From assembly GCA_040882465.1 (NCBI GenBank), contig JBBEBG010000020.1, positions 1-64,000 of the forward strand: DNA of 64,000 bases, written 5' to 3'. A program made the position numbers and the translations under genes. The stretch's first letter is position 1. Every line of letters begins with the position of its first letter. This DNA is from Gemmatimonadota bacterium. GTDB taxonomy: Bacteria > Gemmatimonadota > Gemmatimonadetes > Longimicrobiales > Gaopeijiaceae. Below the pieces are notes generated by a model that saw only the letters and a list, made by a program, of their open reading frames with translations, ran no database searches and was not told the origin of the DNA. Of the stretch, positions 19,151 through 49,093 are shown one piece after another.

Positions 19151-19903
19151 TCACAAGGATCCCATATCGTGGAGAGTCGCGGACCGCAATATCGCCTCGA
19201 CCCGGGCCACGTCCTCGGGGTAGTCCACCCCGATCGAACCGGGAGGGATCGGGCCGCAGGCGATCGGATCCCCGTACTCGAGGAACCTGAGCAACTCGAT
19301 GCTCTCCGCCGCCTCCACGGGTCCACGCGCACGGCCAGCGAACCGGGCGAGCGCCGCGCGTCCGAACGCGTAGAGCCCCACGTGGACCGCCCTACGATAG
19401 GGCGCCTTGAACGCGGACGGAATCGGAAGACGCGAGAGCGCCATGACCCGCCCATCGATCGTGGGGACGAGCTGAACGGAGGCGGAACTGCGCTCCTGCT
19501 CCTCGCTCGCTCCCTCCACGTAGACGGTCGCCACGTCGATGCCGCGGCCGAGTCCGCCCATCAGGCAGTCCACGCAGATATCGATCGCGTCCGGATCGAT
19601 GAGCGGCTCGTCTCCTTGCACGTTGACGTAGAAGTCCCCGAGGCCCCGCTCGGCTACCTCCGCGATGCGGTCAGTGCCTGTGGCGTGCGCGTCCGAGGTC
19701 ATCTCCACGTCGATGCCCAGGCTTCGGCAGAGCTCGCCGATACGCGGATCGTCCGTCGCCACCACCACGCGGTCGAGACGCCGGGCTCGGGTCGCCCGCT
19801 CCCAGACGTGCTGGACCATGGGCTTCCCCGCGATCACCGCGAGCGGCTTGCCCGGGAATCGCGTCGACGCGTAGCGCGCCGGAATGACCCCGACGACGGT
19901 CAT
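19151..19903 (-). CDS. kdsB: 3-deoxy-manno-octulosonate cytidylyltransferase (CMP-Kdo synthase)
   Basis: A 250-residue enzyme that activates Kdo with CTP to CMP-Kdo for lipopolysaccharide core synthesis. Diagnostic motifs: VIPARYASTRFPGKPLA, VVATDD, SDAHATGTDRIAEVA, NVQGDEPLIDP and HVGLYAFGRAAL. Length matches the family (245-255). The ATG overlaps the end of the CBS-domain gene by 4 bp (ATGA), so kdsA, the CBS gene and kdsB form one translationally coupled operon. Confidence 0.95.
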   Translation of the reverse strand: MTVVGVIPARYASTRFPGKPLAVIAGKPMVQHVWERATRARRLDRVVVATDDPRIGELCRSLGIDVEMTSDAHATGTDRIAEVAERGLGDFYVNVQGDEPLIDPDAIDICVDCLMGGLGRGIDVATVYVEGASEEQERSSASVQLVPTIDGRVMALSRLPIPSAFKAPYRRAVHVGLYAFGRAALARFAGRARGPVEAAESIELLRFLEYGDPIACGPIPPGSIGVDYPEDVARVEAILRSATLHDMGSL

Positions 19904-20316
19904 GCTCCGAGGAGCGCCCTCACGGCGGGGTGGAGGTGGAGAAGTCCCGTGAGCACGCCCTTCTCGTCCACGACCGGAAGATCCCAGACGCCGCGCTCCT
20001 CCATCGTTTCCACGGCTTCACGCAGCGAAGCGTCGGCACGGGTCGTGACGGGGCGAAGAACGGCATGCGCGATGACGTCGTCCGCGAAGAGCGCCGCGAG
20101 GGGCTTCTGGAACCGGAGGAGCATGCGCCTCATGTCACCGTCCGTGAAGATCCCGACGAGCCGTCCCCCGTCGCCGACGATGCAGGCCACACCGAGCCCA
20201 CGCTCCGTCATCGCCTCGATCGCCTCCTTGAGGAGAGTCCGTGGCGAGACGATCGGTAGCTCGTCGATCGGCAACATCACGTCGCCGACGTGAATCTCAG
20301 TCGTCGATGTGGACAC
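19900..20316 (-). CDS. stand-alone CBS-domain pair (KdsD C-terminal-like)
   Basis: A 138-residue protein made of two CBS domains (about 12-65 and 75-130): GVACIVGDGGRLVGIFTDGDMRR and VWDLPVVDEKGVLTGLLHLH. This is the C-terminal half of arabinose-5-phosphate isomerase (KdsD/KpsF/GutQ), whose LHLHD-type ending it shares, but the N-terminal SIS isomerase domain of ~190 residues is absent: kdsA occupies the DNA upstream. The best start is a GTG at 20316 lying inside the last codons of kdsA; a longer frame would overlap kdsA deeply. Lacking SIS it cannot isomerise sugar phosphate itself. It may be a regulatory subunit for an SIS protein elsewhere, or a relic. Confidence 0.75.
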   Translation of the reverse strand: MSTSTTEIHVGDVMLPIDELPIVSPRTLLKEAIEAMTERGLGVACIVGDGGRLVGIFTDGDMRRMLLRFQKPLAALFADDVIAHAVLRPVTTRADASLREAVETMEERGVWDLPVVDEKGVLTGLLHLHPAVRALLGA

Positions 20317-21178
20317 GGTCTTCGCCCCACTCGTCGAGAAGCTCGAGGCGGAGCTCGTGCGCCGCCTTGGCCTGCGCCAGGACACGTTCCAGATACCGAA
20401 GATCCAGGACCGTGTTCGAATCGGACAGGGCCCGTGCCGGATCGTCGTGGACCTCCATGAAGAGGGCGTTGATGCCGCAGGTGCTCGCGGCCCGCACCAG
20501 ATAGGGGATAAACTCCCTCTGCCCCCCGGACACGTTCCCCATCGACGTCGGCAGCTGCATGGAATGCGTCGCGTCGAAGCACACGGGGTACCCGGTCTCC
20601 ATCATGATCGGGAAATTTCGGAAGTCGTTCACCAGCATGTTGTAGCCGAAGAACGTCCCCCGGTCGCTCAGGAGGATGTTCTCGTTTCCCGTGGCCTCAA
20701 CCTTGCGGACGGAGTTCTTCATGTTCCAGGGACTCATGAATTGCCCCTTCTTCAGATGAACGGGCTTGCCCGTGGCTCCGGCGGCACGAAGGATGGTCGT
20801 CTGTCGGCAGAGGTATGCCGGAACTTGGACGAGATCGACGACTTCGCCGGTCGCGGGCGCCCAAGAGGCCTCCGAAAAATCCGACGTCACCGGAACGCCC
20901 TTCGCGTCGCGCACGTCGGCGAGGATCTCGAGCCCCTCGTCGATTCCGACGCCGTGAAAGGACTGGGGCGAGGACCGACAATCCTTGTCGTACGAGGACT
21001 TGTACACCCACGGAATGTCCAGCCTCGAGCAGACGTCGTCGATGCCCTCGCAGACGGACAGTGCATGGTCCCGCGACTCGATGGCGCAGGGCCCGCCGAT
21101 GAAGGCGAGAGGCTCCGTGCCGCCGATCCGCACGGTGCGGACCGAGTCGTCCCCGATGTCGATCGTCTTCGGAATCAT
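20297..21178 (-). CDS. kdsA: 3-deoxy-8-phosphooctulonate synthase (Kdo-8-P synthase)
   Basis: A 293-residue enzyme condensing arabinose-5-phosphate with phosphoenolpyruvate to Kdo-8-phosphate. Motifs FIGGPCAIES, YKSSYDKDCRSS, LQVPAYLCRQT-type substrate loop, KKGQFMSPWNM, TGNENILLSDRGT, FDATHSMQLP and the C-terminal EVHDDPARALSD are all seen. First gene of the kdsA-CBS-kdsB operon. The 101 bp upstream is shared with the divergent 21280 gene and should hold both promoters. Confidence 0.95.
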   Translation of the reverse strand: MIPKTIDIGDDSVRTVRIGGTEPLAFIGGPCAIESRDHALSVCEGIDDVCSRLDIPWVYKSSYDKDCRSSPQSFHGVGIDEGLEILADVRDAKGVPVTSDFSEASWAPATGEVVDLVQVPAYLCRQTTILRAAGATGKPVHLKKGQFMSPWNMKNSVRKVEATGNENILLSDRGTFFGYNMLVNDFRNFPIMMETGYPVCFDATHSMQLPTSMGNVSGGQREFIPYLVRAASTCGINALFMEVHDDPARALSDSNTVLDLRYLERVLAQAKAAHELRLELLDEWGEDRVHIDD

Positions 21179-21279: not shown

Positions 21280-22713
21280 ATGAAGGATTCCGAGCGCTAC
21301 GACCCGCAGGAACTCGCGTCGCTGTCGCCGACGGTCCGCTACGATCGCCTGCTGGAGGCCGTATTTCCACACCTGAACGCCGTCCACGGCATCGACCGCA
21401 GTCGCCGGTACTGGGCCATCGTGCTCCACCGGTACCTGCGCAAGTGTCTCATGGCGGGCGACGTGGGCCTGGACCCCGAGCGCCCTGCGCTTCCACCGAC
21501 GCACGACAACGACATCCTCGGCGCATACGTCGGAGGCGGCGGAAAGCAGACGAACCTGGCATCCCGGCCTTCCATGCTGCGTCGCGTGAAGAAGCGTCTC
21601 CCGGCGATCCACCCCTCTCCCGCGGGCGTCCGGACCTGGCTTCGGCTGCGTCAGCTGCGTACCACGTTGGTCGATCGGAGCCCGTCGATCCTTTTCGGAT
21701 TCCATTACTTCCACGTCGTCGCCGACCTCGTCGAGCAGCCTTCGGCCATGCTGCAGCTTCCGCGGCAGGCGATTCCGGCCAGTCCTGCCTGGGATGCCAG
21801 GCGCGAGGCGCTGGCGGACGCGGAGTCGGACGTCGTATGGCCGCTCGCCCGCCTCGCCCTGCGCTGGCTTCCGACGTGGTACGTCGAGGAGTTCGACGCG
21901 AGGGATGCCTCCGTCCCGGTCCGAGACCCCACCGAACGAGAGTTCCACGCCTCGTTCCTCTGGAGTCCCGAGGGTCGGTTCTTCATCGCGCGACATGTGG
22001 AGGAGGGCTCCGCGCTCACGATGTACCAACACGCCGGGACGTACGGAGAGCTCGCAGAAGACGTGGCCCATCACAGCGAGGCGGTCATCTCCGACCGGTT
22101 CCGGACCTGGGGATGGGAGCTGCTCCCGGGTGACTCGCCCCTCCTGGCCCTTCGTCTCCTCAAGCCGCCCGGCCAGACCATCCGGCGGCTGCGCCCCGTC
22201 CCCCGTTGGCTCTACATCCACATCCGGGACCCCTATCCCTGGTTCATCGGAGAGACCGTCGAAACCCAGGACCGGTTCTTCGCCGAGCTTCAGGTGGCGA
22301 AGGCCGCCAAGGTGTTGCTTCGGCCACGGGCGGTGCCCGGGGGCTCGTCGGACCCACAGATCGGACCGCGCGCCCGGAGCGTCGTCGCCGGAATCGACGG
22401 GGGCACGCTTTCGTGGGCGAAGGTCGGGAACCGGTCCGAGATCGTCATCCTCGACGCGTTCCCGACGACGCTCTTTCTCGAGTGCCTCCACGCGGGAATC
22501 CCCGTCGTGGCGATCGTCCCGGAGACGGTGTGTTTCACGGAAGTCGCCGCTCCGTTCTATGAAGAGTTCGCGCGGGCCGGCATCCTGCACGCGAATCCGG
22601 AGTCGGCCGCCCGTTTTCTGAATTCGCTCGATATTCCGCGATGGTGGTCGGAGGTCGAGAGCAGCACCTGGTTTCAGGAGTACATGCGGACCTTCTGCCG
22701 AACCGAACTGTGA
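21280..22713 (+). CDS. LIC12162-family putative surface-glycan transferase
   Basis: A 477-residue protein matching the LIC12162 family (putative transferases of O-antigen and capsule loci): LNAVHGIDRSRRYW at 33-45, the QHAGTYGE box at 250-257, ISDRFRTWGWE at 270-280, then VLLRPR, and a C-terminal block with PTTLFLECLHAGIPV and EEFARAGILHANPESAARFL. Overall shape suggests a GT-B-like retaining enzyme, possibly for an acidic sugar, but no family member's activity was inferred here. It is divergent from kdsA. A diverged and frameshifted paralogue lies at 43299-44751. Confidence 0.82.
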   Translation: MKDSERYDPQELASLSPTVRYDRLLEAVFPHLNAVHGIDRSRRYWAIVLHRYLRKCLMAGDVGLDPERPALPPTHDNDILGAYVGGGGKQTNLASRPSMLRRVKKRLPAIHPSPAGVRTWLRLRQLRTTLVDRSPSILFGFHYFHVVADLVEQPSAMLQLPRQAIPASPAWDARREALADAESDVVWPLARLALRWLPTWYVEEFDARDASVPVRDPTEREFHASFLWSPEGRFFIARHVEEGSALTMYQHAGTYGELAEDVAHHSEAVISDRFRTWGWELLPGDSPLLALRLLKPPGQTIRRLRPVPRWLYIHIRDPYPWFIGETVETQDRFFAELQVAKAAKVLLRPRAVPGGSSDPQIGPRARSVVAGIDGGTLSWAKVGNRSEIVILDAFPTTLFLECLHAGIPVVAIVPETVCFTEVAAPFYEEFARAGILHANPESAARFLNSLDIPRWWSEVESSTWFQEYMRTFCRTEL

Positions 22714-23184
22714 TCCGAAGTTGAGGGCCTTGTGAGCGGGACGTGCCGTGTCCCAGCGGATGGATTCGCAGGGGCGGCGCGCCCCCCATCTCCGTCGACC
22801 ATGGGCCGCCAGGAATGCGGCGGCTCCAGGACCCCATCGCAGTGAACCGGCGTGCGTCAGACCCGGGCCATCGCGCGAAAGGTCGGTGACGTCTCGACGA
22901 GATCGTGGTACGTTCCCGTGGCCACGACGCGGCCCTCCTCCATCAGGTGGATGACGTCGCACTCCTCGACCGTCGTCAGTCGATGTGCGATCAGCAGGAT
23001 CGTTCGGTGGCGCGACAGGTCCCGAATCGCCTGCATGACCACGTCTTCCGTGACATTGTCCAGAGCGCTGGTCGCCTCGTCCATCACGAGAAGCGCGGGA
23101 TCGTGATAGAGGGCCCTCGCGATGCCGATGCGCTGGCGCTGTCCGCCGCCTATAGATGTCGGCATAAGTAATGCAACAGAGGGC

Positions 23185-24181
23185 TCAAAAAAGGGGGAGC
23201 TCTGTGCGGTGGATGCATGAGCGGAGCCTCGACGAGGAGTGGCCGAGCTGCTGCAGTGTGTCGTCCAGATGAGCGTCGAGCTCGTCGATGCTGTCGGGCC
23301 GGCCGTTGGCGAGGGTCGCCTTGGCAAGGCTCCAGACGCCTTCGTCGGCATTGAGCTCGGGGGCGTAGGGAGGCAGCGCGACCAAGTGCAGGCGACGGTA
23401 GCGTCTGCACAGCTCTCGCACGGGGGCTCCTCGATGGATGGAGGCGTTGTCCCAGATGACGATGACGTGGCCGCGCAGGTGACGGAGCAGGTGACGCAGG
23501 AAATCGCACACGCCGTGGCCGTCGATGTTGTGGCGATGGAAGCGGTAGTAGAGTCCCACAGGCGCCGCACCGGGCTGATCGAGAGCCCGGAGATCACCGA
23601 GATGCGGTCGCGCCGGTAGCGATGCCTCACCACCGGTGTGTGCCCCCTCGGCGCCCAGGTCTTGAGCAGCGAGGGGTTCAGCTGGAAGCCGCTTTCGTCC
23701 GCGAAGACGATGTGGGCACCCAGCCGCCCGGCGTTTTTTTTACCTCCGGCCAGCTCTCGCGCTTCCAGCGCTCGAGCGCGCGCCGCTCCGGCTTCTGGCA
23801 GCTCCAGCCGAGTCGCCTCATCAGGCGACCCACATGATCGCGATGATACCGCACTCCGAACTGGGCCTCGATGACCTCGGCGATCCTCTGCGTCGTCCAC
23901 AGCTCCGTGCGGTAGCCTTGCGCCACCGCCCCCTCCAACAACCGCTCTCGGAGCCGCCCCGCCTGCGCCTCGCTCAGCTTCGGCGGTCGCCCCGATGCTT
24001 TGCGCACCTTGAGTCCTTGGGCGCCCTCTCGCTCACGCGCGTCGCGCCACCGCATCACAGAGCTCGCATGACAGCCCACCAACTCGGCGACCTCGCCCAG
24101 CGAGCGACCTTGGTCCAGCAGTCGCATCGCCCGGTGCCGTCGTCGCTCCAGCTGCTTCGCAGAACCTTCCGGTCGTGCCAT
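23185..24181 (-). pseudogene. IS630-family transposase, frameshifted
   Basis: The N-terminal part (start MARPEGSAKQLERRR at 24181) is a helix-turn-helix domain (GRSLGEVAELVGCHASSVMRW) in one frame to about 23740. The catalytic part continues in the -1 frame after an A8 tract (23734-23741 on the + strand as T8), giving IVFADESGFQLNP (first Asp). A second shift near 23555 moves to the frame with GLYYRFHRHNIDG, VIVIWDNASIHRG (second Asp) and LNADEGVW (Glu), so the DDE triad is present but spread over three frames. The first shift could be programmed; the second looks like a lost base. Confidence 0.85.
23734..23741 (-). promoter_or_regulatory. candidate -1 frameshift slippery site in IS630 transposase
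   Basis: On the minus strand GTA-AAA-AAA-ACG gives an A_AAA_AAA heptamer in zero frame, and the -1 product continues with Asn-Ala-Gly-Arg into the catalytic domain. This is the same arrangement as at 45271-45278 in the second, unrelated IS630 copy. Confidence 0.6.
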
Positions 24182-25864
24182 GGCCGGTCGCCTCCTCATC
24201 AAGGGGTACCAGCCAATATATTGCATTAGTTATACAGATGTCCATAAGCGAATCCCTCTCTCCCCGACGACCGTCTCGTACCCCTCGTCCAGCGTCGAGA
24301 CGAACGCGTGGAGATGGGCGGCCCGCGCCGCACGTACCACCGCCGCCGAGTCCACCCGATCTGGAGGAATGCCGAACGCGATGTTCTCGGCGATTGACGC
24401 GTCGCACAGGAAGTTGGATTGCGGCACGTAGCCCACCGTATTTTGCCAGGCCGGAAGGAGGTCGTCGTCGAGGACCCGGTCCCCCGCGAGAATCCTCCCC
24501 TCCGTCGGCTCGAACAAACCCAGCAGGAGATCGACCAGGGTCGTCTTCCCCGACCCCGTGGCTCCGACCAGCGCCGAAGTCCGATTGATGGGAAGATCGA
24601 GATCGATCCCCTTGAGGGCGTCCTGCTTCGCGAACGGATAGCGGAACCACAAGCCTTCTACCCGAATGGACTCGCCCTCGTGGAGCGCGAGTTTCTCTGT
24701 CGTCAGTGAGCGATCCGACGCGCGCACGCTTCGCGTTGACAACACTCCCTCCATAGTCCTGCCCGTAACGTCCGCGTGGAGCTCGTCCACGGTCGCCATC
24801 TGGAGTCGCATGACGGTCATGGCGTTGAAGATCTCCTGGACCCCCGGAATCAGCTGGTTGGCTCCAAAGGCGTAGACCGCGAGCAGCGGAAAGATCTGAT
24901 CCAGGCTCTCGCGGGTCTGAAGGAGATAGAGAATCACAACCACGATCCCGCCGTACGCGAAGGTCTCCAACACGAATCGTGGAAGCAGCCCGACGAAAGC
25001 ATTGGCCTTGTTCGCGTGGGCATACCGGATCGAAGGCTTCAGGAAGCGACTCAGAAAGTGCCCCTTCCTTCCGAGCACCTTCATCTCCTTGATCCCTCCG
25101 AAAGCCTCGTTCGCGACCTGGTAGCGCTCGGTGTTCGCCTGGAGGACGGTGGCCCCCAGCTCTCCCTGTTTCTTTCGGACGAGGACATACACACCGGTAT
25201 AGAAGCCGCCGATCGTGAGCGATACGACGCCGGCCAAAAGGGGATCGACCGCAACGAGCAACGCCACGATGAAGAGGGATGAGATCCCGCGGGAGAGGAT
25301 GGTCGACGCCGGAATGATGAGACCCCGGGTGACCTGCGTGACCTGGTTGAGGAGAGAAGCCCCGAGACGCGCGGAATTCTGATTCAGGTGATATGCGAAG
25401 GACGCATGAAGGTAGACATCGAGGAGGCGGTGGGAGAGTCTTTCGTGCGTTCGCCATTGAAACCGCAGGACCAACCAGGCCGTGAGCGTGTTGAAGCCGT
25501 TCGCCAAGACCATCAGCACTATGAAGAGGATGCCGAGAGCGATCAGATAGGCGTTCCCACTCGAGAATTCCAAGGTCTGGAAGCCCCACGCGAGATACTC
25601 GTTCTCCTCGATCGCCGCCGGATTCGACACGATGGCCAGGAAGGGCATGATCGAGGCGATGCCAACGGTTTGAAAGAGCCCGGTGACGACCATGGCCCCC
25701 AGGAGCCCCGCGAGCCGCCAGTGCTCACTGGGTTCGAAAAGGTCCAGGATCTTCCTCGCGACGTCGCGCATGCCCCCTGGTTGTCCGCTCGGCTGGGTTC
25801 TGTTTGCATCAGGATTACCGGCTGACGGCAATTTTCAAGAACCGGGCCCTGCGGGAAACCTCAC

Positions 25865-42824: not shown

Positions 42825-42990
42825 CCCGCAGACCACTCTTCAGGGTCCTCGTTCCGACGTACGGCCGCGCCAAGTTGCTGAACCGCGCTTTGGCGTCGAT
42901 CCGGATGCAGACCGTCGAGGATTGGGAGTGCATCGTCGCCGTGGACGGAGGCGACGCGCCGCTGGTGCCCTCGGATCCGAGGATCCGGGC
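42821..42990 (+). pseudogene. GT2 glycosyltransferase N-terminal fragment
   Basis: From a TTG at 42821 it reads FRVLVPTYGRAKLLNRAL, then DWECIVAVDGGDAP and PSDPRIRAF, a clear GT2 N-terminus nearly parallel to the intact gene at 46056 (VVIPTYGRATFLNAALE, DWECLVAVDGGEVP, PSDPRIKVI). The match stops before the DxD motif, where antisense kds sequence begins. Confidence 0.8.
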
Positions 42991-43190
42991 TTTCACGAAT
43001 ACGTTCCCGGGGGCCCGTTCGGCAACTTCCGCAATGCGATCGGTCCCCGTTTCATGGGAATCCTCCGTCGTCGTCACGGAGCGCAACACGGCGGGGGCGA
43101 GAACGTTGGAGGCGAAGAGAGCGGCAAGGGGTTTCTCATCGCGAGTGAGCATCCGTCTCGTTTCGCCGTCAGCGAAGATTCCGAGAAGGC
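42991..43190 (-). pseudogene. fused CBS-domain and kdsB fragments
   Basis: On the minus strand one frame reads GIFADGETRRML, EKPLAALFASNVLAPAVLRSVTTT and then HETGTDRIAEVAERAPGNVFVK. The first part equals the CBS domain of 19900-20316 (GIFTDGDMRRML, KPLAALFADDVIAHAVLRPVTT), and the second equals kdsB (HATGTDRIAEVAERGLGDFYVN). So a second copy of the CBS-kdsB operon existed here and collapsed by deletion, leaving ~70 codons. Confidence 0.88.
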
Positions 43191-43298
43191 GGCAGCATGC
43201 GCGTGGACCGTCGATCGTCATTCGGGGTCCTAGATCCACTTGAATTCCAAGACGACTCCGTTTCGAGGGCCATGCCAAACCGGGAAGAAGGCGCCGCG

Positions 43299-44751
43299 AT
43301 GACGAAGTCGGACCATTCTGGCAATCCCGACGCGCTCCCTCCCACCGCGAGGTTCGATCGTCTCCTGGACGAGATCTATCCCCGCCTGAACGCCCTCCAC
43401 GGGATCGATCGATCCCGCCGATTTTGGGCCATCCTAATCCACCGTTACTTGCGGAAGTGCCTAATGGCGGGCGAGGTCGGCCTCGATCCCGATCGCCCGC
43501 TTCCTCCTGCGACGCACGATAACGCAGTGCTTGGGCCCTTCGTGGGCGCGGGGGAGACGGCGCCGGTCCCCGAAGCCGGAGTCGTTTCATCGGCCCGCGC
43601 CCGACTCCGGGGGCGTTGGGATTCGTTTCCCCGCACGCCCAGGACCGCCCAGGCCTGGCTCCGCCTGAGGCGTCTCAACCGCACTCCGATGGACGGGAGT
43701 CGCTCGGTGCTCTTCGGATTTCACTATTTTCACGTCATCGCCGGCCTCGTGGATCCCCCTGCCGCGCCGCTGAATCTACCCTCCGTCGGCGCCACCACTT
43801 CAGCAGACCCCTCGAAGCGGAACGCTTTCAGGGAGCTCGAAGCGTCGGCAGACTGGCGGCTGGTCCGATTGGCGCTCCGCTGGCTTCCGACTTGGTACGT
43901 TGAAGAGTTCGAGCACCGAGATGACGCGGTTCGCCTTCAGAGGCCAATCGAGCAGGCGTTTCACGCCTCCTTTCTTCCCACGCCCGAAGGTCGATTCCAT
44001 ATCGCACGCCACGTGGAGGAAGGGGCGGCGTTCACGATGTACCAGCACGCGGGCACCTACGGTGAAATGAAGGAGGACGTCGCACACCACATCGAGGCAT
44101 GGTTCGCGGATCGTTACCGGACATGGGGATGGGAGCTCCTCCCCAAGGACTCGCCCTTCTTAGCGCTTCGCCTGCTCAAGCCTCCGGGAGAGGAAGTAGT
44201 GCGGCGAACGCCCCTCCCCCGGTGGCTCTACATCAATATCCGGGACCCGTATCCGTGGTTCATCCCGGAAACGATCGACACGCAGGAGAGATTTTTTTTC
44301 GCGACTCGACTCCCGCTGGGCCCGGCAGGTTCTTCTTCGCCCACGCATGATGAAGGGAGGCGCGTCGGCTCCACAGATCAGCGCCCGCGCCCGCGTCTCC
44401 GCGCAGGGGATCGACCAGTGTCTCGTCCCTTGGTCGCAGTTAGGAGGCCGCGCCGAAATCGTGATCCTGGATTCCTTTCCCACCACCTTGCTCCTCGAAT
44501 GCGTTCAGGGGCGGATCCCCGTGATGGCCATCGTTCCCGACGGAGTCGAGTTTTCGGAGGCTGCCCGGCCCTACTACGACGAATTCGTTCGGTCGGGCAT
44601 CCTTCATCGGACGCCCGAAGCCGCCGCAGAATTCCTAAACGACCTAAACATTTCAGCGTGGTGGAGTGAGATTCAGGGACATCCATGGTTCGAATCGTAT
44701 CTCACCACATTCTGCCGTACGGAGGTCGCGATCGAACGATCGGGCGGGTAG
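43299..44751 (+). pseudogene. LIC12162-family transferase paralogue with frameshift
   Basis: A second copy of the 21280-22713 gene. The first frame runs from MTKSDHSGNPDALPP through LNALHGIDRSRRFW, YQHAGTYGEMKEDVAHH, DRYRTWGWE and DPYPWFIPETIDTQERF. At a T8 tract (44292-44299) the frame is lost. Reading on one base later restores SRLDSRWARQVLLRPR and then PTTLLLECVQGRIPV, FSEAARPYYDEFV and ILHRTPEAAAEFL. One extra T explains it, so it is a single-base indel (or sequencing error) in an otherwise complete gene. An ATG at 43272 is also possible. An IS630 element begins 14 bp after the stop. Confidence 0.85.
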
Positions 44752-44836: not shown

Positions 44837-45969
44837 ATGAAGCCACGGTATCGGGTGACGTTGAGTCCGGAAGAGCGGAGTGACCTGGAGGCGGTGACTC
44901 GGGACGGCAAGACCAGAGCGAAGCGGTTCCTCTATGCACGGGCATTGCTCCTGTGCGATGCGGGGCCAGAGGGGCCGGCATGGACGGTGGCCGCCGCGGC
45001 GGAGGCGCTGGGCGTGACGCCCCGAACGATCGAACACCTGAAGAAGCGATTCGTCGAGGAGGGACTCGAAGCGGCGCTGACTCGCAAGCGGGCGGAGAAG
45101 CCGCCACGAGAGGTGATTTTCGGGGGTGAGTTCGAGGCACACCTGATCGCGCTGGCCTGTTCCGATCCGCCCGAGGGGCGAGAGCGCTGGACGGTGCGGT
45201 TGCTGGCGGAAAAGGCGGTGGAACTGGATCTGGCGCCGAGCGTGTCGCACATGACCGTCCAGAGGGCTCTAAAAAAAACGAACTTCGCCCTCACCGCCGG
45301 GCGTATTGGAAGATCCCGCCCAAGGAGAACGCGGCGTTCGTAGCGGCGATGGAGGATGTGCTCGCGGTGTATGCGTTGCCGTACGATCCCCTCTACCCGG
45401 TGGTCTGCATGGACGAATCGTCCAGGCAGCTCATCGGCGAGGTTCACGATCCGATCCCGGCGGCGCCGGGCCGCCCCGTGCGCATGGACCACGAATACAT
45501 GCGCAACGGCGTGGCTCAGCTCTTCCTCGAGGTCGAGCCACTGGCGGGCCGGAGGCATGTGAACGTCACCGAGCGCAGAACCGCGCAGGATTGGGCCCTA
45601 TGGATCAAGGGCATGCTGGACGACCGCTATCCGGACGCCATCAAGGTGCGACTCGTGCTCGACAACCTGAACACGCATACGACGGCGTCCCTCTATCAGA
45701 CGTTCGCACCTCAGGAAGCGCGGCGGCTTGTCGAACGCCTCGAGTTCCACCACACACCCAAGCACGGCAGTTGGTTGAACGTGGCGGAGATCGAACTCAG
45801 CGTGCTTCAGCAGCAGTGTCTCGACCGACGTATCCCGGACCGGGATATCATGCGGTCCGAGATCCTCGCGTGGGAGGGCGACCGCAACAACCGACCGTCG
45901 AAGATCGATTGGCAGTTCCGGACTTCCGACGCCCGCATCAAGCTGAAGCACCTTTACCCGAAACTTTAG
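44837..45969 (+). CDS. IS630-family transposase, made by -1 frameshift
   Basis: The first frame (44837-45343) has the helix-turn-helix domain (WTVAAAAEALGVTPRTIEHLKK). At CTA-AAA-AAA-ACG (45269-45280) a -1 shift continues as NELRPHRRAYWKIPPKEN into the catalytic domain, with VVCMDESS (Asp), VLDNLNTH (Asp) and GSWLNVAEIE (Glu) forming the DDE triad. The total of about 377 residues is normal for the family. No other defect is visible, so this copy is potentially active. Confidence 0.88.
45271..45278 (+). promoter_or_regulatory. candidate -1 ribosomal frameshift site (A8)
   Basis: The A_AAA_AAA heptamer in zero frame joins the N-terminal and catalytic parts of the IS630 transposase. The -1 product matches family sequence without gap; the zero-frame product ends at 45343 in Arg-rich residues. 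Confidence 0.7.
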
Positions 45970-46938: not shown

Positions 46939-47838
46939 TCATCCTCGCGGTGTGGCACCTTCTGAGTTGGGCATCCGGCGCAACCGGCGCATCACTGGGA
47001 GTTCGCTGGCATAGATCGACTTCTTACCATCGCCGAGTGCCCTCTCCACGACTCGAATGTATTTCACCAGCCGAGCAAATCCCTCCGGCTCGACAGACGC
47101 TGCATGGTCACTTCCCCACATGCTGCGATCCAAGGTGATGTGGCGCTCGACAAAGGACGCCCCGAGCACAACGGCGGCGGCGGTCGTGACCAGACCAACT
47201 TCGTGCCCCGAGTATCCGATGGGGCAGGAGAACCGATCACGCAACGTAGAGATCATGCGAAGGTTCAATTCCGCCGGGTCACACGGGTAGGTGCTGGTGC
47301 TGTGGGTCAACACCAATCGGACCAAGTCGAATGTGTCCACCGCGGCATCGATCTGCTCCAGGGTGGACATCCCTGTGGACAAGACGACGGGTCGCTCCTT
47401 CGCCCGTGTATGCTCGAGGAGGTCGCGATCCGTAAGCGTTGCGGAGGCCACTTTGTAAGCAGGTGGAACGAACTGTTCCATGAAGTCCACCGATTCCGTG
47501 TCCCAACAGGAGGCAAACCAGGTGATGCCTTTGGCCTTACAGTGCTTGTCGATGGCGAGGTATTCGTCGAAGCCGAACTCCACCCTCTCTCGGTACTCCA
47601 TGTAGGTGATGTAACCCCAAGGGGTCTCCCGCATGAGTTTGCGCTGTGCTTCGGGAACGCAGAGCTCGGGCGTCCGCTTCTGAAACTTGACCGCATCGCA
47701 TCCCGCAGCGACGGCGGCATCGATTAGCGCCTTGGCGATCTCGACATCGCCGTTGTGGTTGATGCCGATTTCGGCCACCACATAAACGGGATGTCGATCT
47801 CCCAGCCAACGATTTCCGATCTGAATCGCCCTATCCAT
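46939..47838 (-). CDS. neuB: N-acetylneuraminate/nonulosonate synthase
   Basis: A 299-residue TIM-barrel enzyme condensing phosphoenolpyruvate with an N-acyl-hexosamine (or its 6-phosphate) to a nine-carbon acidic sugar. Motifs: VVAEIGINHNGDVEIAKALID, DAVKFQKRTPE, YKVASATLTD, LSTGMSTLEQID and GYSGHEVG, then ERHITLDRSMWGSDH. The C-terminal SAF (antifreeze-like) lid of ~60 residues found in most NeuB proteins is missing; the protein ends soon after the barrel. It overlaps the neuA-phosphatase gene by 8 bp. Confidence 0.9.
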   Translation of the reverse strand: MDRAIQIGNRWLGDRHPVYVVAEIGINHNGDVEIAKALIDAAVAAGCDAVKFQKRTPELCVPEAQRKLMRETPWGYITYMEYRERVEFGFDEYLAIDKHCKAKGITWFASCWDTESVDFMEQFVPPAYKVASATLTDRDLLEHTRAKERPVVLSTGMSTLEQIDAAVDTFDLVRLVLTHSTSTYPCDPAELNLRMISTLRDRFSCPIGYSGHEVGLVTTAAAVVLGASFVERHITLDRSMWGSDHAASVEPEGFARLVKYIRVVERALGDGKKSIYASELPVMRRLRRMPNSEGATPRG

Positions 47839-49093
47839 CGTCGGGGTTCCCGGGGTTGGACTTTGCGAGGAGCATCTCAGCGAGCTCTCTTATTGCTCCG
47901 CGGCCACCGTTTCTTTCAAGCACGATCCGTGCCACCGCTTTGGCGCTGGGATGGGCATCACCCACGGCCACGCCACATCCTGCCAGGCTGAGGCACTCCA
48001 CGTCGTTGATGTCATTGCCGACGAACACCACGTCGGCCAGAGAGATACCCAGGCTGCTCACGAGCTCCCCGAGGAAGGCGGACTTGTCGTCGATCCCTTG
48101 ATGACAAGGCAGTTGGAGCTTCTCGCATCGACGTGCGACGACCGGATTCTTCTCTTTGGAGAGGACCACCACGCGATAACCCGCCGCCTTCAGTTTCTCG
48201 AGCCCTAGTCCGTCGCGGCGGCTGCAAACCACCGACTCAATGCCATCTTGATCGATCCAGACGCGGTCATCCGTGAAGACCCCATCAAAATCCAGCGCGA
48301 TCAGGGCCACTTCACGTGGGAGCGGGCTCCACACCATGCTCGCCGGCGGCCTGACGACGTCGATCCGACCGTCGCGCAAGAGCCACGATGCGAGATCCAG
48401 ATCGTGCTGCGAGTCGATGTCCACGCAATATGCACTGTCGAACAGGAGAGGCAGGACGTGTTCCCCGGTCAGGGATCCTTTCTCCAGGATCGAACTCGTC
48501 CGAACGGCGTCTACGTGACCGGTTTGCCAGTACGTAGCGGGAAGGGCCTGCCTCGGCATGTTGTACGGTTCCGGAAACTCAGTGGCCAGAAGCGGCGTCA
48601 GGAATCCATCAACCCCCGCCTTCCACATCTTGAACGGATTTTGCATCGAGGGAGTGACGCCGCGGACGCAATCCGCCCCCGAAGACGCCAGGAGCATTCT
48701 TACGGCTTCCTCCACCTTCCTTCGCGGGCGAAGAGGTGAAGTGGGGCGCAATTGGACGACGATGTCGGGCCGATAGCCTTCGGAGTCTTCGAGCCACTGG
48801 AGAGCATGCTGAAAGACGGGCAAATCCGGAGTCGAGTCCTCCGCAAGCTTCGCAGGTCTCAAGAAAGGCACCTCCGCTCCGTATCGACGTCCGACGTCCG
48901 CGATCTCCTCGTCATCGGTCGATACGATCAGGCGAGAGATCGTGGGAGCCTCTGTTGCCGCAGCGATGGCATACGCGATGAGCGGATGACCGTCGAGGAG
49001 GCGGAGGTTTTTGCGGGGAAGGGACTTGGATCCCCCACGCGCGGGCACGACCGCGAGCACCTCTGGACTCCCCCCCACTACCACGAGGTCCAC
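47831..49093 (-). CDS. neuA: acylneuraminate cytidylyltransferase fused to HAD phosphatase
   Basis: A 420-residue fusion. Residues ~10-235 are a CMP-nonulosonate synthase with VVPARGGSKSLPRKNLR, QLRPTSPLR and the YNMPRQALP/TGHVD region. Residues ~258-400 are a KdsC-like HAD phosphatase: DFDGVFTD at 268-275 (nucleophile and acid/base Asp), LSKEKNPVVARR and VGNDIND at 358-364. The layout resembles vertebrate CMAS. With neuB beside it, the HAD part could remove the 9-phosphate before or during CMP activation. Starts ~16 bp inside the SDR gene's end. Confidence 0.92.
   Translation of the reverse strand: MDLVVVGGSPEVLAVVPARGGSKSLPRKNLRLLDGHPLIAYAIAAATEAPTISRLIVSTDDEEIADVGRRYGAEVPFLRPAKLAEDSTPDLPVFQHALQWLEDSEGYRPDIVVQLRPTSPLRPRRKVEEAVRMLLASSGADCVRGVTPSMQNPFKMWKAGVDGFLTPLLATEFPEPYNMPRQALPATYWQTGHVDAVRTSSILEKGSLTGEHVLPLLFDSAYCVDIDSQHDLDLASWLLRDGRIDVVRPPASMVWSPLPREVALIALDFDGVFTDDRVWIDQDGIESVVCSRRDGLGLEKLKAAGYRVVVLSKEKNPVVARRCEKLQLPCHQGIDDKSAFLGELVSSLGISLADVVFVGNDINDVECLSLAGCGVAVGDAHPSAKAVARIVLERNGGRGAIRELAEMLLAKSNPGNPDDG

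Follow-up and report, generated by a model that had tools for sequence, protein, structure and literature searches.

The Kdo gene set of the window

The window (the whole stretch of 64,000 nucleotides analysed here) carries a compact set of Kdo-type genes within a glycan gene region, adjoined by a LIC12162-family transferase, and at some distance the remains of a similar set. The features are:

19151..19903, minus strand: KdsB2, CMP-Kdo synthetase-like cytidylyltransferase (PF02348 and NCBIfam KdsB subfamily models)
19900..20316, minus strand: CBS-only gene (138 aa) related to the CBS half of KdsD, partner of KdsA2 (Pfam and NCBIfam)
20297..21178, minus strand: KdsA2, Kdo-8-phosphate-synthase-like (TIGR01362, clade, KDCRS for KANRS, GEDxVH tail)
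21280..22713, plus strand: LIC12162-family transferase, divergent neighbour (TIGR04331, E 7e-35, below its cut-off)
42985..43191, minus strand: degenerate cassette remnant, CBS residues 52-96 joined to kdsB residues 66-96, kdsA lost
43332..44727, plus strand: second LIC12162-like transferase in two overlapping frames (tblastn with the 21280-22713 protein, 56% identity)

The CBS-only ORF runs on the minus strand from a GTG start at 20316 to a TGA stop at 19902-19900. Pfam detects two CBS domains and no other domain in it (PF00571, E 1.1e-18), which corresponds to the C-terminal CBS pair of KdsD (arabinose-5-phosphate isomerase), and on the 268 positions of the KpsF/GutQ profile TIGR00393 the ORF covers 156-268, the CBS half. 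The SIS catalytic domain that a KdsD also needs gave no match at this ORF in the profile search. The original prediction that only the CBS half of arabinose-5-phosphate isomerase is encoded is thereby borne out, as are the overlaps it described with kdsA at one end and kdsB at the other: the start lies 20 nt within the 3' end of kdsA (21178-20297), and the stop shares a 4-nt ATGA with the start of kdsB (19903-19151).

The flanking genes fit their family profiles. KdsA2 scores 322.6 bits with TIGR01362 (cut-off 314), and because it passes this curated cut-off it is annotated as ordinary KdsA. KdsB2 reaches 232.8 bits with NF003952 (cut-off 193); its TIGR00466 score is under the cut-off of that model. 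The LIC12162-family protein at 21280..22713 is, by family, a probable surface-glycan transferase. Beyond it a PglK/MsbA-like ABC transporter gene (22857-25831) appears split by an IS630-like transposase (about 23150-24226, minus strand).

In the same genome contig C40 carries canonical kdsB, kdsA, kdsC and a full SIS+CBS kdsD, followed by an lptC-like ORF. As this canonical set is complete, we regard the set in the window as an auxiliary or second one. The gene had been placed inside the Kdo operon in place of KdsD; it does lie in a Kdo set, but not in the only one. The SIS-only kdsD that was to be sought elsewhere in the genome did not turn up, as the three PF01380 SIS matches fall in a GlmS-size frame of 644 aa (two) and in the kdsD of C40 (one). 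Among 121 genomes searched of the host's own family, its own apart, no close solo CBS protein was found, hence the cassette in the window was probably acquired.

The decayed copy lies about 22 kb from the intact cassette. Its remnant matches by tblastn at 67% identity over 45 aa for CBS and 58% over 31 aa for kdsB, and by blastn at 72% over 116 bp. These remnants together with the second transferase indicate that the cassette was duplicated or acquired twice and that one copy decayed. Nearby we noted a transposase-like ORF pair at 44837-45969, similar to the IS630-like one mentioned above, and at 46939-49093 a NeuB-like synthase ORF adjoining a third cytidylyltransferase (CTP_transf_3). The sequence of the latter pair suggests that the region may also make a nonulosonic acid.

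KdsA2 and its CBS neighbour in other genomes

The KdsA of the window was used as the single query against about 85,000 species genomes, and the matches listed make up our sample of loci. At least 75 loci fall at 60-77% identity; below them identity drops without intermediates to the 49-53% of canonical KdsA. In a tree, 62 of the listed loci together with the window form one clade, here called KdsA2, separated from canonical KdsA with an SH-aLRT of 100, and the canonical KdsA copies of the same genomes fall outside it. According to the NCBI classification, the 75 listed loci represent at least ten phyla. A search for KdsA2 on phages and plasmids gave only relatives below 60% identity, of the canonical motif type where checked.

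In fold KdsA2 is a Kdo-8-phosphate synthase (KDO8PS), which gives its best Foldseek matches with TM 0.8-0.9. The KANRS motif is replaced by KDCRS, the Asp being found in 75/75 and the Cys in 70/75 of the listed loci, whereas Ala-Asn of KANRS is present in all 35 canonical KdsA. The Asn of KANRS touches the C2 hydroxyl of arabinose 5-phosphate, and judged from the sequence the change would agree with an altered aldose recognition. At position 102 Ser replaces His. The catalytic Lys, Arg and His residues of KDO8PS are kept, and C31, H205, E242 and D253 are invariant, the same Cys, His, Glu and Asp ligand types as in the metal site of KDO8PS (PMC3052366). Between close pairs of kdsA2 genes dN/dS is 0.014-0.064.

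KdsA2 further has a C-terminal tail absent from canonical KdsA (residues 277-293, window 20297-20350), usually with a GEDxVH-like end. It is predicted to be disordered, with pLDDT 52 in the last block, and on the basis of the model it is possibly a docking peptide or site for the CBS protein. Its last residues share DNA with the start codon region of the CBS gene, and some of them may be constrained at the DNA level; most loci in which kdsA2 and CBS do not overlap nevertheless keep the GEDxVH motif. At one locus (L151) KdsA2 has no tail, and there the CBS gene is divergent and upstream.

A solo CBS gene was present in all 74 testable loci among those listed, the contig of the remaining one ending just after kdsA2. 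In 72 of the 74 it lies immediately downstream (one copy is cut by the contig end and one, L133, is shortened), in L151 immediately upstream and in L152 3.2 kb upstream. The recurrence of relatives at the same kdsA variant makes it far from likely that the CBS-only ORF arose by chance. Identity to the CBS protein of the window is 35-59%, and the kdsA2/CBS junction overlaps in 52 of the 71 loci scored, mostly by 17-20 nt. We found no SIS-only partner in the 75 listed loci by tblastn with the SIS domain of KdsD; SIS occurs in two of them, as a neighbouring SIS+CBS kdsD. Beside the canonical kdsA of the same genomes no solo CBS gene was seen (0/24), three CBS matches there being the adjoining full kdsD, and none was seen in the fetched flanks of at least 42 viral kdsA loci from IMG/VR (L248-L289), where nearly all KdsA homologues have the KANRS/T motif.

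A tree of few columns separates the solo CBS proteins, as a single group, from the CBS domains of KdsD (SH-aLRT 99.9); because of the few columns the inner forks are unsure. KpsF/KdsD/GutQ models were the best NCBIfam matches for all 30 solo members scanned. The TDGDxRR motif is common to solo CBS proteins and KdsD, while K30, C45, QKP 70-72, D79-D80, WDLPV 111-115, H127 and H129 are near-invariant and private to the solo group. The AlphaFold model of the CBS protein is confident (pLDDT 91), and together with GIFTDGD it identifies a Bateman fold with the GhxTxxD motif. Its nearest solved structures are the KdsD CBS pairs 4o9k, 3k2v and 3fna; the best match, 4o9k, is described in its title as a complex, with a ligand that we take to be CMP-Kdo. 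Two findings had been named that together would speak against a functional gene: a full kdsD does exist elsewhere in the genome, but the frame is under purifying selection, as dN/dS between close pairs of solo CBS genes is 0.07-0.24.

Two layouts recur. One is similar to the window (kdsA2-CBS-kdsB2-kdsC-radical SAM) and the other is kdsA2-CBS-HpcH/HpaI aldolase-SDR-SDR-kdsB-transferase. About 40 loci (L089-L150, e.g. L104:5053-7379) have the HpcH/HpaI aldolase and usually two SDRs between CBS and kdsB, a set which may tailor the product or make another ulosonic acid. In 11 related loci the gene after CBS encodes a KdsB of the window type (52-67% identity). The kdsB types range from 23 to 67% identity to that of the window, and kdsA2 and CBS stay paired. 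The distance matrices correlate with r 0.71 for KdsA2-CBS versus 0.59 for KdsA2-KdsB. Of the kdsA-CBS-kdsB order the first part is conserved (CBS immediately downstream in 72/74) and the second is not, as other genes often stand between. The idea of a free CBS protein tied to both enzymes accordingly holds for KdsA, through linkage, translational overlap, selection and clade signatures, and is weaker for KdsB, whose types are swapped. We found no paper pairing KdsA with a CBS-only protein in the literature covered, which lies mostly outside subscription journals.

KdsD in genomes with KdsA2

Fifty genomes with KdsA2 and CBS were compared. KdsD is present in 28 (one a fragment at a contig end) and canonical KdsA in 24, while 20 have neither. 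KdsD co-occurs with canonical KdsA in these hosts (Fisher p 8e-7). Most of the hosts lacking KdsD are incomplete MAGs or single-cell genomes; outside GlmS-sized frames their SIS matches are absent, weak or, in Devosia and a few others, without a kpsF-profile match at the threshold.

As many of these genomes are incomplete, Prochlorococcus was taken as test genus. Among its 41 genomes six have a KANRS/T-type KdsA, all with a full KdsD, and four have KdsA2, all with the solo CBS gene and none with KdsD (6/6 against 0/4, p 0.005); no KdsD was found in the remaining 31. One of the four (G475, L312) consists of one contig of 1,924,674 bases with no Ns and encodes KdsC, KdsA2, CBS and KdsB. No KdsD was found on this 1.92-Mb contig, the only KdsD match being the CBS half seen in the solo protein. 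SIS is matched there by one protein of GlmS size and, weakly and in part, by two others; for one of these two, counterparts occur in genomes with KdsD. In one Prochlorococcus genome kdsB lies 51 kb from kdsA2-CBS. We also observed that the single contig of another genome (G476, L313) has kdsB-kdsC-kdsA-kdsD in apparently the same island as kdsA2-CBS of G475, with similar flanks.

The absence of KdsD in hosts disfavours a dependence of KdsA2 on arabinose 5-phosphate made by KdsD. As KDO8PS catalytic and metal residues are kept, KdsA2 could still use arabinose 5-phosphate from another source. The genome of the window itself has a full KdsD, which we counted against a bypass of that enzyme.

Possible function and relation to known systems

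We favour, with rather more confidence than doubt, a reading in which KdsA2 works in a KdsD-independent pathway and has the CBS protein as its stand-alone regulatory subunit. KdsA2 and CBS would probably constitute a self-regulated route to a Kdo-type sugar without KdsD, since a sensor-like protein resembling the tail of KdsD accompanies KdsA2 while KdsD itself is missing from the gene set. KdsA2, as a divergent metal-type enzyme, would condense PEP with a sugar phosphate for which KdsD is not needed, ribose 5-phosphate being the simplest candidate aldose. The CBS pair, akin to a KdsD tail that would sense nucleotides or CMP-Kdo-type ligands, would most likely bind either a nucleotide or the end product of the adjacent KdsB, a CMP-ulosonate, and would adjust the activity of KdsA2 in trans, perhaps via the C-terminal tail of the enzyme; the first committed, PEP-condensing step would be a natural control point. 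That the two proteins bind each other, what the ligand is, which way the control runs and which aldose is used are all inferred. Further, we speculate that KdsA2 defines a KdsD-free ulosonic branch in which PEP and, for example, ribose 5-phosphate give a stereoisomer of Kdo under feedback by the free CBS protein, and which has spread horizontally across ten or more phyla and, in Prochlorococcus islands, takes the place of kdsA-kdsD; taken as a whole, we would sooner expect this scenario to fail than to hold.

The invariant pairing, together with family-specific residues strongly kept in the linker and the second CBS domain, could also be explained if the CBS protein served KdsA2 as a structural subunit or an obligate activating one and sensed no small molecule. 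This is the strongest of the competing explanations but an unlikely one, as the first CBS domain retains the GIFTDGDxRR motif typical of nucleotide-binding CBS domains. Next in order, and also unlikely, is that the protein mainly regulates KdsB or later enzymes of the cluster, sensing the end product of CMP-sugar synthesis; most loci do have kdsB in the cluster, and in the window its start runs over the CBS stop codon, but the adjacency of kdsA2 and CBS is kept with widely different kdsB types, often with genes intervening, and even with kdsB far off in one Prochlorococcus genome.

We find it quite improbable that the target of the CBS protein is the SIS domain of a KdsD whose gene lies elsewhere, on which it would act in trans. 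Its closeness to the CBS domains of KdsD and the full KdsD in its own genome would fit, but KdsD already has a CBS pair, 20 of the 50 hosts have neither KdsD nor canonical KdsA, and the single-contig Prochlorococcus genome has no KdsD. The suggestion that the protein controls an SIS half located elsewhere consequently fails as a general rule. Hardly credible is a vestige of a kdsD stripped of its SIS domain: the half-KdsD likeness and the decayed cassette copy at 42985-43191 recall such a process, but the gene is intact, has its own signature and clade in ten phyla, and a vestigial half-gene or decayed KdsD is ruled out by this conservation and by the dN/dS values.

Under standard annotation KdsA2 passes for ordinary KdsA and its partner for just another CBS protein, so that a two-gene module conserved in ten phyla goes unnoticed. 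If a KdsA2 regulated by a stand-alone CBS subunit is correct, Kdo-type sugars can be made without KdsD, metabolic models that demand an arabinose-5-phosphate isomerase are wrong for organisms with KdsA2, and there is a Kdo-8-phosphate synthase whose regulator is a separable protein. Given a genome in one contig that encodes KdsC, KdsA2, CBS and KdsB and lacks KdsD, the choice of aldose can be tested directly.

Among known systems the CBS protein is closest to KdsD/KpsF/GutQ (TIGR00393), with which it shares the CBS pair at 31-41% identity, TDGDxRR and the nearest structures; it differs in lacking SIS, in its separate clade, in extra residues between the CBS domains and in QKP/WDLPV. KdsA2 likewise resembles KdsA (TIGR01362) in fold, above-cut-off profile score, metal ligands and catalytic Lys/Arg/His, but has KDCRS, Ser at 102, the GEDxVH tail and a constant CBS neighbour. 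Small free CBS pairs of Bateman fold are also seen in stand-alone regulators such as CBSX and AcuB, whereas the solo CBS proteins described here group with KdsD CBS domains by sequence; we know of no stand-alone CBS-pair family dedicated to ulosonate synthesis. Capsule Kdo loci carry extra KpsF and KpsU, paralogues of KdsD and KdsB, and are similar in that a second Kdo gene set lies within a surface-glycan locus, but in the window the KdsA is a variant, and of KdsD the set has the CBS half alone. Type I-beta DAHP synthases with fused regulatory domains belong to the same superfamily as KdsA, and would offer an analogy for allosteric control at the first committed PEP condensation; there the regulator is a fused ACT or chorismate mutase domain, while the candidate proposed here is a CBS protein encoded separately.
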